Part shown: positions 4,505 to 30,471 of the stretch, piece after piece
Position numbering within the stretch: position 1 is the first letter of the stretch
How the letters are laid out: each line of letters begins with the position of its first letter
IMG/VR virus record: IMGVR_UViG_3300023109_000084
Location: 1-30,531 of that record
Reading direction: 5' to 3' (one strand)
Length of the DNA: 30,531 nt
Source: a virus
Translations under genes and position numbers: made by a program
The notes under the pieces: model-generated
The model's database searches: none
Told to the model about the DNA's origin: nothing
Seen by the model: the letters and a program-made list of their open reading frames with translations, nothing else

Positions 4505-7500
4505 TATGCTACTCCATACGGATTAAGTATTCCGCCTGATCGTTTTTGGTTGTGTAGTTCCGTTTGAACTGCAGAGGCTACGGCGGCACCAAGCTTGTCC
4601 ATATCTGGTCCTGAACTGCCTTCTTTACTGCTTTGTCCGTCTGTAGATATATTAACTACAATATTATTGTTTGTTGCACCGCTGTCTTTCATATCTACAG
4701 GTATAGATCTTCCATTCGGCAAAGGAACTACTGCTTCTGTTCCGTGAAGAGTTGCTGGATATCCTGAAGTTGAGCCTCTTGCGACTCCTCCAGTTGCGTA
4801 TCCTTGCGTTTTTTTACCTTCTGAAAATACTCCTCCAGTTCTAGCAATAGCCGCTACATTATATCCTGAGGAAAAATCAGTCATTCCCGCATCAGTAGGT
4901 GCACCCATTCCAAAAGCACTCATAAGAACTCTCATAATCATCATTTGAGCAATCATTTGTGTGATTTGGGAAAGTATGCTTATTGCCATACTTTTGAAAG
5001 CCTCTTTTGCCGAAGCTGTTCCTGTAACAATTGAGGTAAAGGCGGCTGACATACTGCTTGCAATTCCATCAAAAAGTGCTTGTTTATTTTCTGCCAGTTT
5101 AGCAAGCATTGTTTGTGTTTTTATTTCCTCGTATAACAGGCCCTGCTCTGCAATTGTTAACTCTACTCCTTGACTTTTTAGTTCATTCATTTGAACATTG
5201 AAAGCCGTCATAGCAGGGTTCATAGATATAGATTGTACCTTTAGTTGCAGAGCTTCTGTCTCTCCCTTAGCGTTTAGTAGTACTAGCTCTTCTCTCTTTT
5301 TGTAAAGCTCTATCTCCTGGTTTAGAGAAGCTAAACGATTAGTAGCCCCTTGATTTGCTTTTTGAGCGTTAAAAGCGTTCATTGGATCATACCCTGGAGT
5401 TCCTTCTTTAGCCTTTTCAGCATCTACAATTTTTTGCGTATCTAATACATCTTGCTCTGCTTGTGAGCGCTTTGCATTTAGGTTAGTTTCAAAAGCTTTG
5501 TCTGCAGCCTGCCCTCGGGCTTGCCCAAATAAACCTGTCCCTCCTGCTTGAATATTTTTTAAAGCTAAAGAAGTACGAAAGATTGCGGTAGTTAAAGCCA
5601 GCCTTTTTCTTATTTGCTCATTTATAACTTTTTGCTGGTTCAGTTCAACAATCTTTATACTATTATTTTCTTCGCCTAATTCAATTTCTCTATTTGCTTG
5701 TTGTAACTTCTTTTCCCCTTCTATAATCTGTGCTCTTACTTGCTCGAGTGTAGTTATCTCTGTATCTAGTAAATTTTCTCGGGCTTTTCCGTTTTCATCT
5801 GTTAAAGAAACTTCTTGTGATCTTAAGAGTAAAAGTGCTTGCTGCTCGTCATTTGCAGATTTAGATAATATTAACCCCTGTGCTTGAACATTTTTTATCT
5901 TGTCCTCTATAGTTATTCCGTTTGTTCGCATTGCTGCGGCTTCTGTCTGTGCGGTTACTTGTTCATTACTTAGCCTTGTCATCTCGTCTTGATTTTCTTT
6001 TAGTGCTTCAGTAAAAAACTTATTAGTCTCTAACCTTTTACTTAAATCGCCCAGTGCGGAGTTTTGAAGATTTAGCTGCTCTACACTTCTAGCATGAATA
6101 TCTAGTATCTCTTGGGAGGGTTTGGCAAACACATCTACCATTTGAGGCTGGCCACTTAGGGTGGGTAGATCACTTTCTACTTGTCCAATTTTTAGACCTT
6201 TTCCATCTCTATCAATATTATGTTTCTTTTCGAACTCTTCTAACTGAGCGGCTTCTTTACCTAATTCAGTGCCCCTGGCTGCTAAAGCTACGGTTTGGGA
6301 ATCAATTACAGCAGTTAAAGAAGATTGAAGCTCTGAGGCAAAAGGTTTTTTGATGGTACCAGTAAGTTTAGTAAGCTGTGTATTCATTGCTGCAATTTTT
6401 GAAGGCAATCTATCAAGAGTTATTCCAACATTTTGTAAATCGTTTCCAAGATTTACCATGCTTAGTCGCTGCTCATCGGTTATCTTGGTTCCGCTATTTA
6501 AAGAAGCGGACAGAACTTTAAAGCCCTCATCTAATTCTCCGGCTGCATCTGCTGTTTTTATCATCCTTTCAAACATTTCATCGGGGATCATTCTATCGGG
6601 GTACATTTCAATAGCTTCATTTATTTCTTTAATCATAGAGGTCAAACCTAAACTACCCACAGCCTTTCCCCGTGTTTGTATCATGTCTGAGCCGTTAAGC
6701 ATGGTGTAGTCTTTCATAACATCTACAGTACGGCCGAGTTCCTCCCCTAAAGTTTTGTACTTACTAGTGAGTTCTTCTGTTCTTTTTTCTAATTTTTTTG
6801 TCTCCTCAGACATAGGATAGAAGTACTCTTTTATCATTTTCATGCCATCATAAGCTATTGAAAGCATAGATATCCAAAAGAAAGCCTTACCTATTACTGC
6901 TCCTGCTGTAGCTGCTGCTCCTGCTAACCCTGCGAAAGCAACCTTAGCTGTAGAAGCCATTGAGGTTAATTGTAGTTTAAAGCTTTTTATAGCTAAGCCT
7001 CCTTTTTTCAGTTGGAAGGCAAAGTCGGCCATGCCTTTTTTGTGTATGCCCGCCCTTATATTATAACTTTTTCGTAAATCGGCAACTTGTTGTGCATTCA
7101 TATTCTTTAAAAGACCTGTTCTCTTTTTTGCAGATTTTTTAAGTTGATTTTCAGCATTCAGAAGTGCTTTATCTGCCGCTCTCTGAGATCTTTTAGAGTC
7201 TGTGTTTCCCTTTAAAAAGTCTAATCCGCCCTGCCCTGACTTAGTACCTCCTGGCACCTCTGCGGCTATTTTTGCACCTGCTTTTTTAGCAATACTTGCA
7301 TCATTCATACGTGCAAGTTTTAATTTCTCATAACTTTTTTGTGTTCTTGCAAGTCTTAACTGAACAGCCTGCTGATCTCTTCCTACTTGTTTGGCAGTAG
7401 CTTGACTGGACTCTTTCCAGGCACTCATACTCGGAAGTACTTGCTTAAGTAAGCCGCCTGCAAATAAAGCTACTGCTCCCGTTAGTGCCATCATATTATT

Positions 7501-8343: not shown

Positions 8344-9184
8344 TAGCCTTTCACATTATGGGTGAAATTCTTTCCACCGCCCGCAGAACGTCTTTGTTCT
8401 GCCTTTTTCTGCTTTTCTGCCTTATCTACTCTATGGGCTACTAGTATTCCTTCCCACATTTTCATTAGATAAAGCATGTGTCTAGGTTCTTCTATATTAT
8501 AAAGGTTGAATAGGTACTCTATATTGCCCCAGTTCTTACCCATGTAAGAGCCGGACATGCCATCCCAAATATCCTCAAGAAATCCAAATATAAAAAATGC
8601 CACTTGGACATCAGAAGGAAGATCTGAAGTCTCGAGCGGCATCTTATCGGGATCGGGCTCTTCACCCAATTGATCACAGATAAGCAAGTACTTATCTAAG
8701 TCAATCTGACCTGATTGCTTTACATATTTCTCAAGCAGAACCCGTATTGCGTCTACTTGTTCCCAGTAAAATTTTCAAGGGCACTCACGGTTTCAGTAAC
8801 CCAAGTATCAAAGTCACCTGCATTTCTCATAAGTAGCTCTGAGTTATCTTGTGTAAAAGGGAGTTCATCATCAGGGTCAAGAGCAGAAACATCTACCAAT
8901 AGAAGCTCTTCTAGGTACTTATATTTTAAGCCTGACCATCCTTTGATTACTGCTTTACAATACTCTACTAAGAATCTTTCTTCATCTAACTCTTCTTCTG
9001 GCTGACGAGTTTTTTTATTAAACTTTGTTGTAACACATCTTTTACGTAATTTTACTAGCTCTTCTCGGGCTAGATAGCAAAGATCTATTGTCATACCTAC
9101 ATGACCTGGAAAGTCAATTGTTACGGTTTTACTAGGAGTCATAAGACTCGCAAGTGATACTGCTGGTTTGGTTGTGTCGATCAT
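8343..9184 (-). CDS. Tail assembly chaperone GT, made by -1 ribosomal frameshift
   Basis: Joint product of the G-like frame (start 9184) and the downstream frame ending at 8343. Reading A AAT TTT at 8774-8768 and slipping back one base takes the ribosome into TAC TGG GAA CAA GTA..., which runs without a stop to 8343. This gives 139 residues from G plus 141 from the T frame, about 280 aa. Lambda G and GT are about 140 and 279 aa, so the geometry matches closely. The T part (FIFGFLEDIWDGMSG..., then a Lys-rich tail) would contact the tail tube protein while G contacts the tape measure. The T frame has no credible start of its own. The frameshift is inferred from sequence, not measured. Confidence 0.87.
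8753..9184 (-). CDS. Tail assembly chaperone G-like
   Basis: 143 aa, first gene after promoter P1. It is acidic and mostly helical (REELVKLRKRC, EELDEERFLVEYCKAVIKGW) and ends with the TETVSALENFTGNK segment where the slippery site lies. Position between the major tail protein and tape measure, length, and the overlapping -1 frame identify it as the short tail chaperone that coats the tape measure during tail assembly and is absent from mature virions. The mRNA leader is about 70 nt and carries a hairpin. Confidence 0.87.
   Translation of the reverse strand: MIDTTKPAVSLASLMTPSKTVTIDFPGHVGMTIDLCYLAREELVKLRKRCVTTKFNKKTRQPEEELDEERFLVEYCKAVIKGWSGLKYKYLEELLLVDVSALDPDDELPFTQDNSELLMRNAGDFDTWVTETVSALENFTGNK
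8768..8774 (-). promoter_or_regulatory. Programmed -1 frameshift slippery site A AAT TTT
   Basis: Perfect X XXY YYZ heptamer in the G zero frame (GAA AAT TTT ACT), four sense codons before the G stop TAG at 8755-8753. The -1 frame after it is open for 141 codons into the T-like region. In phages with this arrangement slippage yields a minor fraction of GT fusion. I did not find an obvious strong downstream pseudoknot by eye. Confidence 0.8.
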
Positions 9185-9220
9185 GTTATATCCTTAGTTA
9201 TCTTATTAATGGAAACGAAA

Positions 9221-9242
9221 CAAGGGTGAAAATCCACCCTTG
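9221..9242 (-). other. 8-bp stem-loop in the leader of the tail operon mRNA
   Basis: CAAGGGTG and CACCCTTG pair perfectly around a 6-nt loop. With transcription from P1 starting near 9255, the hairpin would form about 12 nt into the RNA and is followed by TTTCGTTTCC. It could be a stabilising 5' hairpin, a weak attenuator, or an end signal for readthrough from the major tail gene. The T-run is interrupted, so I do not call it a full terminator. Confidence 0.55.
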
Positions 9243-9261
9243 CTCCGATTTTCTATTACAT

Positions 9262-9301
9262 AGTATAGTCCAAAAGACCTCCCATGTCAAGAACTTTTTT
9301 T
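9262..9301 (-). promoter_or_regulatory. Promoter P1 (tail chaperone, tape measure and tail tip)
   Basis: On the minus strand: A-tract (comp. 9301-9295), -35 TTGACA (9290-9285), 17-bp spacer, -10 TATACT (9267-9262). It shares its whole architecture with five other promoters of the leftward block. The start site should lie near 9255, giving a leader of about 70 nt before the G-like gene. Confidence 0.88.
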
Positions 9302-9313
9302 ACGTTGTTCCTA

Positions 9314-10507
9314 CTATGCTACAGCCAGGCCTTTGTACTGTATAGTAGCTTCATCTGCAGAAGTAATATCTGTAGGTAGAGCACTAAAGGTAGTCTCAAT
9401 AGAAATAACATCATCAATACTATGCGAGGGAATCTCTAAGTGACAGGCCGGAAGGTTTATCGACAAGTGAGGGCCTGCTGTAGTACTTGCAGGAGTACCA
9501 CCAATATGGAATGTTAAGTCAAAATCATTCGTAGTAGTAGTAGTAGAAGTAACCAGATCTTCAAATAAGTCTGAACTTCCTGCTGATGAGTTAGACAAGT
9601 AACAAGTAAAGCTACCTCCAATAGTACGAGTACCTGTTACATGCCCGATAGGACTATTTACTTCACCAATCGTGTCTGGAGTTAGATAAGTAATATTATT
9701 TTCAAAACTAACACTACCACCTGTCAGAGTCAGAGTATACGAAGTTACAATGTTTTCCGCTGCAGTTGCTCCTACTACTAGAGTAGTTAATCTGTTACGA
9801 ATAAAGTTATTAGTGGCAGATAATCCTTCCTTAATAGTTACTGTAGGCTGTGAACCTTCATCCGTAATACTTGAAGCAAAACCTGACCAGTTAATAGTAG
9901 CAATACCATCAATATCAAAGTCTACTGTTGCGGAGTTAACTACTGCTTTAGCAAGTTTATATACTTGGTGCGTGCCTGCATCATAAGCTCCTGAGCCCAT
10001 AATAAAGTAAAGTTCAAGTTCTTTAACTGTGGACTTGTTAGATCCTAAAAAGTCGACTGTTAAACGTGGCTCCGTATTAGCATCCCAAGGCACAGAAGTT
10101 GTATTATTAGTAACATTATCAGCCCAAGAAGAATTAGAAGAGGCTGTTCCTTCTGTAAAGTCTGCTGTTCCTACTAGTGCTGCCCAGAGAACTTCTTCTA
10201 CTGCATGCACTTGTGCACTTGTACCGTCCCATCCAAGACCCGTAGGACTAGTTACAGCATCCACCGTAGATAGAAAAGGTCTTACATAAGTTGAAAAAGA
10301 CCATTCTGCAGGTGCCATAGAATCGTTAAACATCTTACGACCTCTTCGGCTAACTCCTGCTGATGACTCCATTTCGTTCAGAGTTACCTCTGATGCGTTT
10401 GTTGCTTGAGAGAACGAGAATCCGTCTAGTACTGGAATCTCAAAAAAGGTTGAGTCGCATTTCACAACCAGTTTTGTGTCTCTGCTAAAAAATAAATCAT
10501 TTGCCAT
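9314..10507 (-). CDS. Major tail tube protein
   Basis: 397 aa, Ser/Thr-rich, beta-type composition. The N-terminal marker FEIPVLDGFSFSQATNASEVTLNEM is typical of phage tail tube subunits of this class, followed by SRRGRKMFNDSMAPAEWSFSTYVRP, also common in them. It lies between the tail-terminator gene and the frameshifted chaperones, exactly where a lambda V counterpart belongs. At 397 aa it is longer than lambda V (246 aa), so it may carry an extra surface domain, but I see no clear boundary. A ribosome site (TAGGAGATTAACT) precedes the ATG. Confidence 0.88.
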   Translation of the reverse strand: MANDLFFSRDTKLVVKCDSTFFEIPVLDGFSFSQATNASEVTLNEMESSAGVSRRGRKMFNDSMAPAEWSFSTYVRPFLSTVDAVTSPTGLGWDGTSAQVHAVEEVLWAALVGTADFTEGTASSNSSWADNVTNNTTSVPWDANTEPRLTVDFLGSNKSTVKELELYFIMGSGAYDAGTHQVYKLAKAVVNSATVDFDIDGIATINWSGFASSITDEGSQPTVTIKEGLSATNNFIRNRLTTLVVGATAAENIVTSYTLTLTGGSVSFENNITYLTPDTIGEVNSPIGHVTGTRTIGGSFTCYLSNSSAGSSDLFEDLVTSTTTTTNDFDLTFHIGGTPASTTAGPHLSINLPACHLEIPSHSIDDVISIETTFSALPTDITSADEATIQYKGLAVA

Positions 10508-16857: not shown

Positions 16858-16897
16858 ATTATAGCGGCTTTAGGGTCACTTGTCAATAACTATTTTT
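16858..16897 (-). promoter_or_regulatory. Promoter P2 (HNH, portal, capsid)
   Basis: A-rich upstream tract, TTGACA (16886-16881), 17-bp spacer, TATAAT (16863-16858): a full sigma70 consensus. An ATG lies seven bases after the -10 (16850), opening a 12-codon frame that ends inside the start of the HNH gene. Confidence 0.9.
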
Positions 16898-20543: not shown

Positions 20544-20583
20544 ATTATACTCAAATAGAGGTTGGTTGTCAAGAGATTTTTTT
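20544..20583 (-). promoter_or_regulatory. Promoter P3 (packaging and membrane-gene operon)
   Basis: A-tract (comp. 20583-20577), TTGACA (20572-20567), 17-bp spacer, TATAAT (20549-20544). The ATG of the terminase small subunit begins seven bases after the -10, at the expected transcription start. Confidence 0.9.
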
Positions 20584-27389: not shown

Positions 27390-27428
27390 ATTATATCTCA
27401 CTTTCCATAAATTGTCAACAATTTTTTT
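27390..27428 (-). promoter_or_regulatory. Promoter P5 (fibre operon)
   Basis: A-tract (comp. 27428-27422), TTGACA (27418-27413), 17-bp spacer, TATAAT (27395-27390). The leader of about 20 nt carries AACAGGAG before the fibre ATG at 27361. Confidence 0.9.
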
Positions 27429-28122: not shown

Positions 28123-28284
28123 ATGGCATTATTTACAATCGTTTTAAACGTTTTTTTGATCCTTTGCGCGGCTCTTGCGTTCGTTATCTCGTTTCTTGGT
28201 GGCGTGGGCTGGCTGGCTCTGGTTATGGTTCCAGTTATGGCCGCGCTAATTTTTTCTTTAAATTCTCTAATAAAGGCTTGCTAA
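28123..28284 (+). CDS. Small membrane protein, first rightward gene
   Basis: 53 aa, ATG 28123 with GGGAAGGG upstream. Almost wholly hydrophobic: MALFTIVLNVFLILCAALAF followed by GGVGWLALVMVPVMAALIF, consistent with two membrane spans. The stop region overlaps the next promoter. A longer frame beginning at 28164 overlaps it and is not preferred. No family recognised; tiny membrane proteins at the head of phage early operons often act on the host envelope, but there is no direct evidence here. Confidence 0.72.
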   Translation: MALFTIVLNVFLILCAALAFVISFLGGVGWLALVMVPVMAALIFSLNSLIKAC

Positions 28285-28306
28285 TGCTTGCACTCTATGA
28301 TAGAAT
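28278..28306 (+). promoter_or_regulatory. Second rightward promoter
   Basis: TTGCTA (28278-28283), 17-bp spacer, TAGAAT (28301-28306), overlapping the end of the first rightward gene and preceding the 100-aa gene at 28344. Matches are 4/6 and 5/6 to consensus, so moderate. Confidence 0.5.
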
Positions 28307-28343
28307 AGCATCTCTTTACAATTACTTACTAGGATATAAAATT

Positions 28344-28646
28344 ATGACTGATATTAACTACACTCCCGAAATGGTCGCGGTTCTTAAAGCGGCTCAACCT
28401 ATCAACTATGCTAAGGCTCAAGAATTAGCCAAGCAATTAGATCGAGGCGTTCGTTCTATCATCGCCAAGACTAAGCGCGAGGGCTTCGACTATATCAGCA
28501 AGCCAGCACCAGCCAAGAAAAAAGCGGCACCTAGCAAGGCCGATATGGTCGCGGCAATCTGCGCGGCAGTCGATACTGACTCGCTTGACGGGCTAGAAAA
28601 GGCTACTGGCTCGGCTCTAAATAAATTACTTTCATCGCTTGCATAA
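28344..28646 (+). CDS. Small probable DNA-binding protein
   Basis: 100 aa from ATG 28344 (the frame is open upstream to 28164, but that part overlaps the first membrane protein and lacks a ribosome site). The pattern DINYTPEMVAVLKAAQPINY, then AKAQELAKQLDRGVRSIIAK and TKREGFDYIS is a helix-turn-helix-like domain that I associate with early genes of marine and Vibrio phages ('nyt.emv..l......n...a..lA..lgk..rSviaK.krlg'). An Ala/Lys/Pro linker (PAPAKKKAAPSK) leads to a short helical C-terminus (residues 68-100). Likely regulates phage or host transcription; the target is unknown. Confidence 0.75.
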   Translation: MTDINYTPEMVAVLKAAQPINYAKAQELAKQLDRGVRSIIAKTKREGFDYISKPAPAKKKAAPSKADMVAAICAAVDTDSLDGLEKATGSALNKLLSSLA

Positions 28647-28898: not shown

Positions 28899-29375
28899 AT
28901 GCAATATAAAATTTGGGACTTAGACGGAACCGTGATCGACTCAAGCCACCGATATTCGACCTTGCCAAATGGTGATATAGATCTGCCGAAATGGATCGCT
29001 GACAATACACGCGAGAACATTGAGCAAGATAAATTGCTACCATTGGCGCGGTTGATGCAATCCAATTATGCTAACGGTGATATTGTTATTATCTGTACTG
29101 CTCGCGTTCTGGGTGTTTGGGATCACGTTTTTTTAGCTGACCACGGTATCAAGGCGCAATTTATTCTCTCTCGCGCACTTGGTGATAATCGCGGTGACGC
29201 TGAAATGAAACGCGCTAAACTTATTGCGCTATTCGCTGATCTCAAAATACCTTTTGCAAGATGGACTCGTAACGCTACATTCTACGATGATAATCAAGGC
29301 GTGTTAGATATGGCAGAAAAAATTGGCATTCGCACAAGAAATGCTGTAAAATTAAATCTTCAATTAAGGGCTTAA
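28899..29375 (+). CDS. HAD-superfamily phosphatase
   Basis: 158 aa, ATG 28899 with GGGAG upstream, 3 bases after the preceding gene. All HAD motifs are visible: motif I WDLDGTVID (Asp7 nucleophile, Asp9 acid/base), motif II IICTAR (Thr67), a lysine around 104-107 (MKRAKL), and motif IV FYDDNQG (Asp130-Asp131). The body between I and II is short and typical of the phage polynucleotide-kinase-phosphatase-like HAD proteins (cf. T4 Pnkp phosphatase domain). No kinase P-loop is present. Likely removes phosphates from nucleotides or nucleic-acid ends; substrate not determinable. Confidence 0.85.
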   Translation: MQYKIWDLDGTVIDSSHRYSTLPNGDIDLPKWIADNTRENIEQDKLLPLARLMQSNYANGDIVIICTARVLGVWDHVFLADHGIKAQFILSRALGDNRGDAEMKRAKLIALFADLKIPFARWTRNATFYDDNQGVLDMAEKIGIRTRNAVKLNLQLRA

Positions 29376-30151: not shown

Positions 30152-30160
30152 GCAAGAATC

Positions 30161-30203
30161 ATGCCAACTATAAATGCGGATGAGAACCATTCGCATTTGG
30201 CAT
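30161..30203 (+). other. Stem-loop abutting the parS-like site
   Basis: AAATGCG (30172-30178) pairs with CGCATTT (30192-30198); an outer ATGCC (30161-30165) pairs with GGCAT (30199-30203) across a bulge. It lies 10 bases after the last rightward stop, where an RNA 3' structure is expected, but there is no U-run. It ends on the first base of the parS-like palindrome. Confidence 0.5.
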
Positions 30204-30218
30204 GTTCCACGTGGAACA
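30203..30218. promoter_or_regulatory. parS-like centromere palindrome
   Basis: TGTTCCACGTGGAACA is a perfect 16-bp palindrome matching the bacterial chromosomal ParB/Spo0J site consensus (TGTTNCACGTGNAACA) at every defined position. Chance occurrence in one 30-kb window is very unlikely (14 fixed positions). No ParA or ParB is encoded in the window, so it would bind the host ParB or one encoded elsewhere on the genome. Confidence 0.82.
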
Positions 30219-30228
30219 CTCCGCGCTG

Positions 30229-30266
30229 AAAAAATCTGAGAAAAAGCTTGACTTTCCCAGATTTTT
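30229..30266 (-). terminator. Intrinsic terminator of the leftward small RNA
   Basis: On the minus strand AAAAATCTG (30266-30258) pairs with CAGATTTTT (30238-30230), with partial inner pairing GGAAAG/CTTTTTC around a short loop, ending in a run of six T. The U-run is partly in the stem, as in symmetric phage terminators, so it may also end rightward transcripts. Confidence 0.6.
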
Positions 30267-30288
30267 GGCGCGGGGGCGCCAGTAGTAG
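30267..30288. repeat. 22-bp GC-rich direct repeat, copy 1
   Basis: GGCGCGGGGGCGCC followed by AGTAGTAG. The first 14 bases form a GGCGC/GCGCC hairpin with a four-base loop. Identical to copy 2 (113 bp away). Function unknown; both copies lie in the candidate RNA. Confidence 0.9.
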
Positions 30289-30379
30289 GTCAACGATTGT
30301 TTTAGCATGGGCCTCAAAAACGTGTGACCAACTTTCCACCAATTGGTCGAGTCTTTTTTGAGCATCGGGTTGACAAATC

Positions 30380-30401
30380 GGCGCGGGGGCGCCAGTAGTA
30401 G
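30380..30401. repeat. 22-bp GC-rich direct repeat, copy 2
   Basis: Identical to copy 1 at 30267-30288 over all 22 bases. On the minus strand this hairpin is additionally enclosed by CAAATCG and CGATTTG, giving a two-step stem. Confidence 0.9.
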
Positions 30402-30435
30402 TACGACGACGATTTGCGTCGGATGCTCCGCGCCG

Positions 30436-30471
30436 ATTATAGTACAGTTGCGATGCGATGTCAAGTCTTTT
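30436..30471 (-). promoter_or_regulatory. Promoter P7 (leftward, into the gene-free region)
   Basis: A-rich upstream tract, TTGACA (30464-30459), 17-bp spacer, TATAAT (30441-30436). Full consensus, same design as P1-P6, but no recognisable leftward gene lies before the terminator at 30229. Confidence 0.88.

Follow-up and report, generated by a model that had tools for sequence, protein, structure and literature searches.

The transcription unit at the end of the window

The window (the whole stretch of 30,531 nucleotides analysed here) ends in a gene-less unit that is read leftward. Its promoter, on the minus strand at 30464-30436, matches the sigma70 consensus TTGACA-17-TATAAT at 12 of 12 positions, is preceded by AAAAGAC, and occupies a position that is conserved in relatives. 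Four exact consensus promoters, this one included, were found in the window, all of them on the minus strand; the others lie in the late region, at 16858-16886, 20544-20572, and 27390-27418. The discriminator CGGCGC (30430-30435, minus strand) directly follows TATAAT, and transcription is predicted, from the position of the −10 hexamer, to start at about 30429. The sequence CTACTACTGGCGCCCCCGCGCC is then present twice on the minus strand, with hairpins at 30393-30380 and 30280-30267. Each hairpin is the end of a longer motif: copy 1 (30380-30412, minus strand) consists of TCGTCGTCGTACTACTACT followed by the dyad GGCGC-CCCC-GCGCC, and copy 2, which is of a second type (30267-30297, minus strand), of ATCGTTGACCTACTACT followed by the same dyad. 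The GGCGC of the promoter and that of the motif are 41 bp apart in the window. The linker between the two copies contains a GACC...GGTC hairpin (30326-30348, minus strand), which was listed as terminator-like; by eye, hairpins of this kind can be recognized in several relatives with two motif copies.

The unit closes with an AT-rich 14-bp hairpin, apparent in the predicted fold, which has TCAAG in its loop and is accompanied by a T tract (30229-30266, minus strand). This element is likely a bidirectional terminator; being palindromic, it would suit the convergent operon as well. It was not flagged by a simple terminator scan, and the number of terminator-like sites in the region did not exceed that in shuffled sequences. 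Of 64 loci, 43 have TCAAG no more than 45 nt beyond the dyad, compared with 6% of background windows.

The predicted transcript runs from about 30429 to 30229, i.e., about 200 nt, and is probably non-coding. The RNA from 30430 to 30226 folds at −68.3 kcal/mol, with a z of −4.06 relative to shuffled sequences; for the opposite strand z is −1.1. No match to the window was obtained in Rfam at the gathering threshold, sub-threshold matches being at chance level only, and a search of the window for tRNA and tmRNA returned none. Minus-strand open reading frames of 122 and 109 codons overlap the unit; the three frames are open in 28, 37, and 28 of 62 loci, respectively, and a coding gene was rejected because frame conservation is absent across these loci. 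The sequence-only reading had described a full-consensus leftward promoter followed by about 200 nt with two identical GC-rich hairpins, a terminator, and no credible coding frame. This description holds, and the codon-like frame conservation that had been named beforehand as evidence against it was not found. The position of the unit, convergent to the early operon and beside a parS-like site, is likewise as that reading had it.

The parS-like palindrome, TGTTCCACGTGGAACA (30203-30218), lies just beyond the terminator. In 47 of 60 loci, a site of this kind follows the last motif at a distance of at most about 330 nt; the locus thus seems to include, as a conserved component, a ParB site of the host type. 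A long palindrome with a Fur-box-like core spans 30160-30204 of the window (minus strand, AAATGCGAATGGTTCTCATCCGCATTT); Fur-like palindromes occur in 10 of 60 loci, including the subclade of the window, where the palindrome lies beside the array described below. Part of the relatives carry ATGAGAATGGTTCTCAT palindromes, which resemble repeats in the injection-stop signal of phage T5. An apparent excess of DnaA boxes was traced mostly to the repeat TTTTTGCACA, which flanks the −35 hexamer.

A tandem promoter array in related viral genomes

The contig that makes up the window truncates the feature; in most of the 64 non-redundant relatives, it forms the end of an array that continues upstream. 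The exact 22-mer of the repeat is present in 40 IMG/VR stretches. If the four loop bases are left free, the number rises to 105, which includes chance matches in GC-rich genes; removal of redundancy left the 64 loci. Most loci were gathered by motif-based seeds and promoters were counted by consensus matching; as the loci share ancestry, the counts given here are not independent.

Comparison of these loci identifies the gene-less promoter of the window as the last unit, at the promoter-distal end, of a previously unnoticed tandem array. The 450 nt upstream of the last motif, 25.9 kb over all loci, contain 126 sense promoters matching at least 10 of 12 consensus positions, or 4.9 per kb, compared with 0.5 per kb elsewhere in the same loci and 1.4 per kb in the antisense direction. 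Where enough sequence is available, two to five tandem consensus promoters are found 75-105 bp apart, nearly all in one direction; a few loci have one array promoter or none. Most array promoters are followed by (C)GGCGC and some by ACCAGGGT. By comparison, GGCGC follows only 5 of the 58 consensus promoters counted in five records. In the same five records, a C directly precedes TTGACA in 45 of the 58.

A trace of the next unit is probably preserved at the very end of the window. The sequence CGGCGCC at 30526-30520 (minus strand) is probably a remaining piece of the discriminator belonging to the upstream neighbour of the visible promoter: the distance from its GGCGC (30525) to that of the visible promoter (30434) is 91 bp, which matches the spacing between the tandem promoters of relatives. 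We infer this assignment, since the −10 and −35 hexamers would lie beyond the contig end.

The exact 20-nt core is absent from the genomes of 84,980 prokaryote species, for which reason an element of host genomes was rejected as the source of the array; no DNA-level match was found in named phage or plasmid records, and no such promoter cluster is present in the T5 stretches or the VCPH end examined. Contig ends cluster at the array, which raised the possibility of a genome terminus; the positions are too scattered for this, and the repeats account for the clustering.

The conserved motif is a promoter copy that lacks the −10 hexamer

About 42 bp downstream of the promoter lies a promoter-like copy, consisting of spacer and discriminator, from which the −10 hexamer is missing; in the last copy, the discriminator is completed to the dyad GGCGC-N4-GCGCC. 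The spacing of these elements is fixed. The distance from the −35 hexamer to the motif is 64, 65, or 66 bp in all 45 near-promoter copies, and the leader between them is poorly conserved despite this fixed distance. The distance from GGCGC to GGCGC is 39-43 bp in 77 of 86 distinct sequences, with a mode of 42 bp, which corresponds to four turns of B-DNA. Within the dyad, the half-sites are kept and variation is confined to the central four bases.

The motif itself serves as the spacer of a live promoter in many arrays, where it lies upstream of that promoter's own start site. In locus L013, for example, CTTGACA-TCGTCGTCGTACTACTAC-TATAAT-CGGCGC is found beside ATCGTCGTCGCACTACTACT-GGCGC. The clearest lineage-specific case is L225, where the promoter has AATTTCAGTTTAGCACT and GGCGC is preceded by AAATTTCAGTTTGGCACTTT. 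Individual lineages have motifs of their own, such as TCGTCGTCGNACTACTACT, ACTTCACTTTCGCACT, and ATTTCAGTTTGGCACTTT, with architecture and spacing unchanged, and in the other lineages a differing motif tends to resemble the lineage's own spacer. Over 62 non-redundant loci, the likeness of motif and spacer is 8.94 of 12 within a locus versus 8.41 between loci; the within-locus value exceeds all of 5,000 permutations (maximum 8.85), by a modest margin. Repeated sites accordingly match within a genome and change together between lineages, as is expected of an operator array. The main alternative is that recombination could have homogenized motif and spacer in a manner similar to gene conversion; the sequences flanking the block vary between units, which counts against it.

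Carriers and genomic neighbourhood

The carriers examined in full are uncultivated phages distantly related to T5. Four large array-bearing records (G001, G002, G004, and G005) encode the replication and virion core of T5, their proteins being 20-50% identical to those of T5. This core comprises D3, ligases, a D5-type helicase, primase, DNA polymerase, D10-D15, TerL, portal, protease, capsid, and tail proteins. The window holds the virion part and a dmp homologue (28899-29375); the best matches of its terminase, at 50%, are to T5-like phages. Named phages reach at most 43% in the DNA polymerase, which places the group among uncultivated phages.

In its usual arrangement, the array lies on the strand opposite to the early operon with dmp and exonuclease and is directed towards it. 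A search for dmp yielded 80 loci; among the 64 with at least 1.5 kb of downstream sequence, the array is on the opposite strand in 54. The early operon has the reverse orientation in L005, L039, and their close copies, and the array is co-directional with it there. The more distant dmp-bearing loci L186 and L196 have opposite-strand consensus promoters with a different leader, which still contains TTTTGGCGC and a hairpin; at L196 6682-7382 and at L186 6491-7041 and 7391-7691, the −10 hexamer is followed by TAGTGGGG or GAAGTGCT, then by TTTTGGCGC and the hairpin. The facing operon of the window encodes a D5-like DNA-binding protein (28164-28646; PHROG 323, E 6.9e-6). Multiple copies of small ORFs for D5-like DNA-binding proteins (cluster C0) flank the array within a locus, on either side.

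One contig from a genome collection, L231, carries a variant array (5278-5549) together with dmp and a parS-like site and is part of a groundwater Proteobacteria MAG. It is the only contig of such a collection that does so, and it has its own dmp and regulator homologues. It is probably a phage contig binned with a host, which gives a weak hint at a proteobacterial host.

Conservation of DNA sequence or of RNA structure

The sequence-only reading had proposed a structured regulatory or decoy RNA, and this part of it did not stand up to comparison across the family; none of the results hints at the suggested action on RNA-binding proteins of the host or on a defence system. Folding around the last motif has a mean z of −1.56 in the sense and −1.87 in the antisense direction (62 loci), i.e., there is no strand bias. 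The GGCGC/GCGCC stem is never swapped for another paired sequence, and no compensatory change was seen in it; even in loci found by the promoter pattern alone, with no stem in the seed, it is at most shortened to GCGC. Because it is never replaced, this stem gives no covariation evidence. The arms of the AT-rich hairpin score 3.16 when paired as they occur, compared with 2.97 ± 0.08 for arms swapped between loci, a slight difference. The outer stems of the window fold (GGAGCATC/GATGCTC and AAATCG/CGATTT) were considered and dropped, as relatives do not keep them. What is conserved is primary sequence and fixed spacing, and the view that the conserved part is a structured RNA is not supported. 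The block is also kept in spacers that are not transcribed and in copies without a −10 hexamer, which points to its recognition as DNA.

These observations bear on three explanations in which the transcript itself matters. The tandem promoters might serve to produce an abundant short hairpin RNA that acts in trans, as a decoy or antisense, during infection. Strong promoters, a terminator in the window and many relatives, the want of a coding frame, the strong fold of the window RNA, and the constant distance from the start site of a conserved single-stranded stretch and the hairpin behind it all agree with this explanation; the family-wide folding and pairing results, the occurrence of the block in untranscribed promoter spacers, the lack of a T-tract terminator in several loci, and the absence of an Rfam family do not, and we regard a functional small RNA as possible though rather unlikely. 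Alternatively, the unit may work like pR'-tR' of phage lambda, making a short terminated RNA constitutively until an antiterminator acts at the promoter-proximal hairpin, whereupon read-through would silence the early operon by antisense transcription and reach late genes on the same strand. Like the lambda unit, which yields the 6S RNA, the array combines by its sequence a strong promoter, a fixed promoter-proximal element, a short non-coding RNA, and a terminator; in the window and in the large records, late genes of the same orientation lie beyond. Moreover, GGCGCNNNNGCGCC matches the elemental-pause consensus G−11 G−10 ... G−2 Y−1 G+1. It differs in having several tandem promoters, an intervening convergent early operon that would require about 2 kb of antisense transcription, and late genes with consensus promoters of their own (27903-27875 and 27418-27390); no antiterminator was identified, and the early operon is inverted in L005 and L039. 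A lambda-like late switch therefore seems very unlikely. Least probable, and likewise very unlikely, is priming of a replication origin by array transcripts. Tandem promoters and AT-rich stretches would be in keeping with an origin, and the cumulative GC-skew minimum lies 1.5 kb from the array in G005; in G002 and G004 the distance is about 6-7 kb and gene orientation accounts for the minimum, and no replication gene adjoins the array. An origin defined by GC skew was rejected owing to this inconsistency among the three records.

A proposed regulatory DNA block and its possible relation to DNA entry

The explanation that we favour, with a confidence somewhat short of even, is that the window contains the promoter-distal end of a strong sigma70 tandem array, a regulatory DNA block between two early operons in which the GGCGC blocks would be operators. 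According to this view, a single protein that binds DNA sequence-specifically would recognize each GGCGC-centred block as an operator; a phage D5-like or HTH protein (e.g., that encoded at 28164-28646), or another protein, is a candidate for it. Such a regulator would grip both the live promoters and the −10-less copies and thereby set the strength at which the array fires; acting on the array promoters, it would do so in cooperation with the −10-less site located four turns further on, and would have its strongest site in the final dyad. As its output, the array would yield a non-coding RNA that terminates early, after about 200 nt in the window. This RNA may be a by-product; alternatively, it may be the truncated form of a transcript that, upon read-through, would run antisense to the early operon. 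In our opinion, control at the DNA level is the probable role of the locus, with a short non-coding transcript made besides. Several observations temper the operator reading: the excess of motif-spacer likeness within loci is small, the fixed spacing would fit an RNA or pausing element too, and the conservation of terminator and leader, where present, fits a functional RNA.

The phage nature of the carriers, with T5-type core genes, and the proximity of the array to dmp, a pre-early gene of the terminal repeat in T5, suggest a comparison with the T5 injection-stop signal, the mechanism of which is poorly understood (PMC13250531). In T5, this signal occupies positions 9140-10144 of AY692264, at the inner end of the terminal repeat that includes dmp. 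The array may be its counterpart, with sites for host proteins (RNA polymerase, ParB, and in some loci a Fur-like protein) halting a two-step DNA entry. Both are non-coding, repeat-rich blocks associated with dmp and the pre-early region of a T5-type phage; T5 (AAATGAGAATCATT) and, beside the array, the window subclade have Fur-box-like palindromes, GCGC is found at the T5 nick (5'-GCGC) and in every array unit, and most array loci add the parS-like site. On the other hand, T5 itself has neither tandem consensus promoters nor GGCGC dyads there and carries instead perfect DnaA boxes and TGTGCAAATCCGACA repeats, whereas the DnaA-box-like matches of the arrays are mostly the promoter-flank repeat mentioned above, and Fur-like sites are restricted to the minority of loci given above. 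A tblastn search (E 1e-3) of the window and of four large records that may be incomplete gave no homologues of A1 and A2, which are needed for second-step transfer in T5; very divergent homologues could escape such a search. The T5 nick consensus was discarded as the source of GGCGC, as the two have no more than GCGC in common and one of four annotated T5 nicks lacks it; the stable RNAs of T5, compared by eye only, show no similarity to the array. Since T5 lacks the array and the array phages lack recognizable A1/A2, the array is at most a positional counterpart of the injection-stop signal and not a member of its class; that it works as an injection-stop element of the T5 type is, in our estimate, unlikely. 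We consider it quite unlikely, too, that the array is a DNA-entry or early-switch element built from docking sites for host proteins, in which host RNA polymerase, held at the tandem promoters with their GGCGC pause or operator blocks and next to a host-type ParB site, marks the boundary of the first-entering DNA in a T5-like group apparently without recognizable A1/A2.

A conserved non-coding control region marks a diverse group of uncultivated T5-like phages and was invisible to gene-based annotation and Rfam. For the timing of early transcription and the two-step DNA entry of T5-type phages, a compact, alignable element at the corresponding place provides sequences to test. If the operator reading is true, these loci constitute a natural series of co-varying operators together with a regulator whose specificity has changed repeatedly.

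The array has further partial parallels. The operators and stoperators of mycobacteriophage L5 and its relatives likewise serve one regulator through numerous asymmetric sites, of which some lie in promoters and others outside them, and the L5 site contains TGTCAAG, as does the stretch after the dyad here; those sites are spread over a temperate phage genome, whereas here they are confined to one array, and we know of no immunity repressor in the array phages. The P1 and P2 promoters of rrn operons share consensus-like hexamers, an upstream A tract, a GC-rich discriminator, and tandem arrangement; to our knowledge, the −10-less copies and the dyad have no counterpart there, and no stable RNA is known for the array. 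Finally, a sigma54 promoter-like sequence, TGGCATGATTCTTGC, is present on the minus strand of the window at 30166-30152 and is common to about 10 of 60 relatives.
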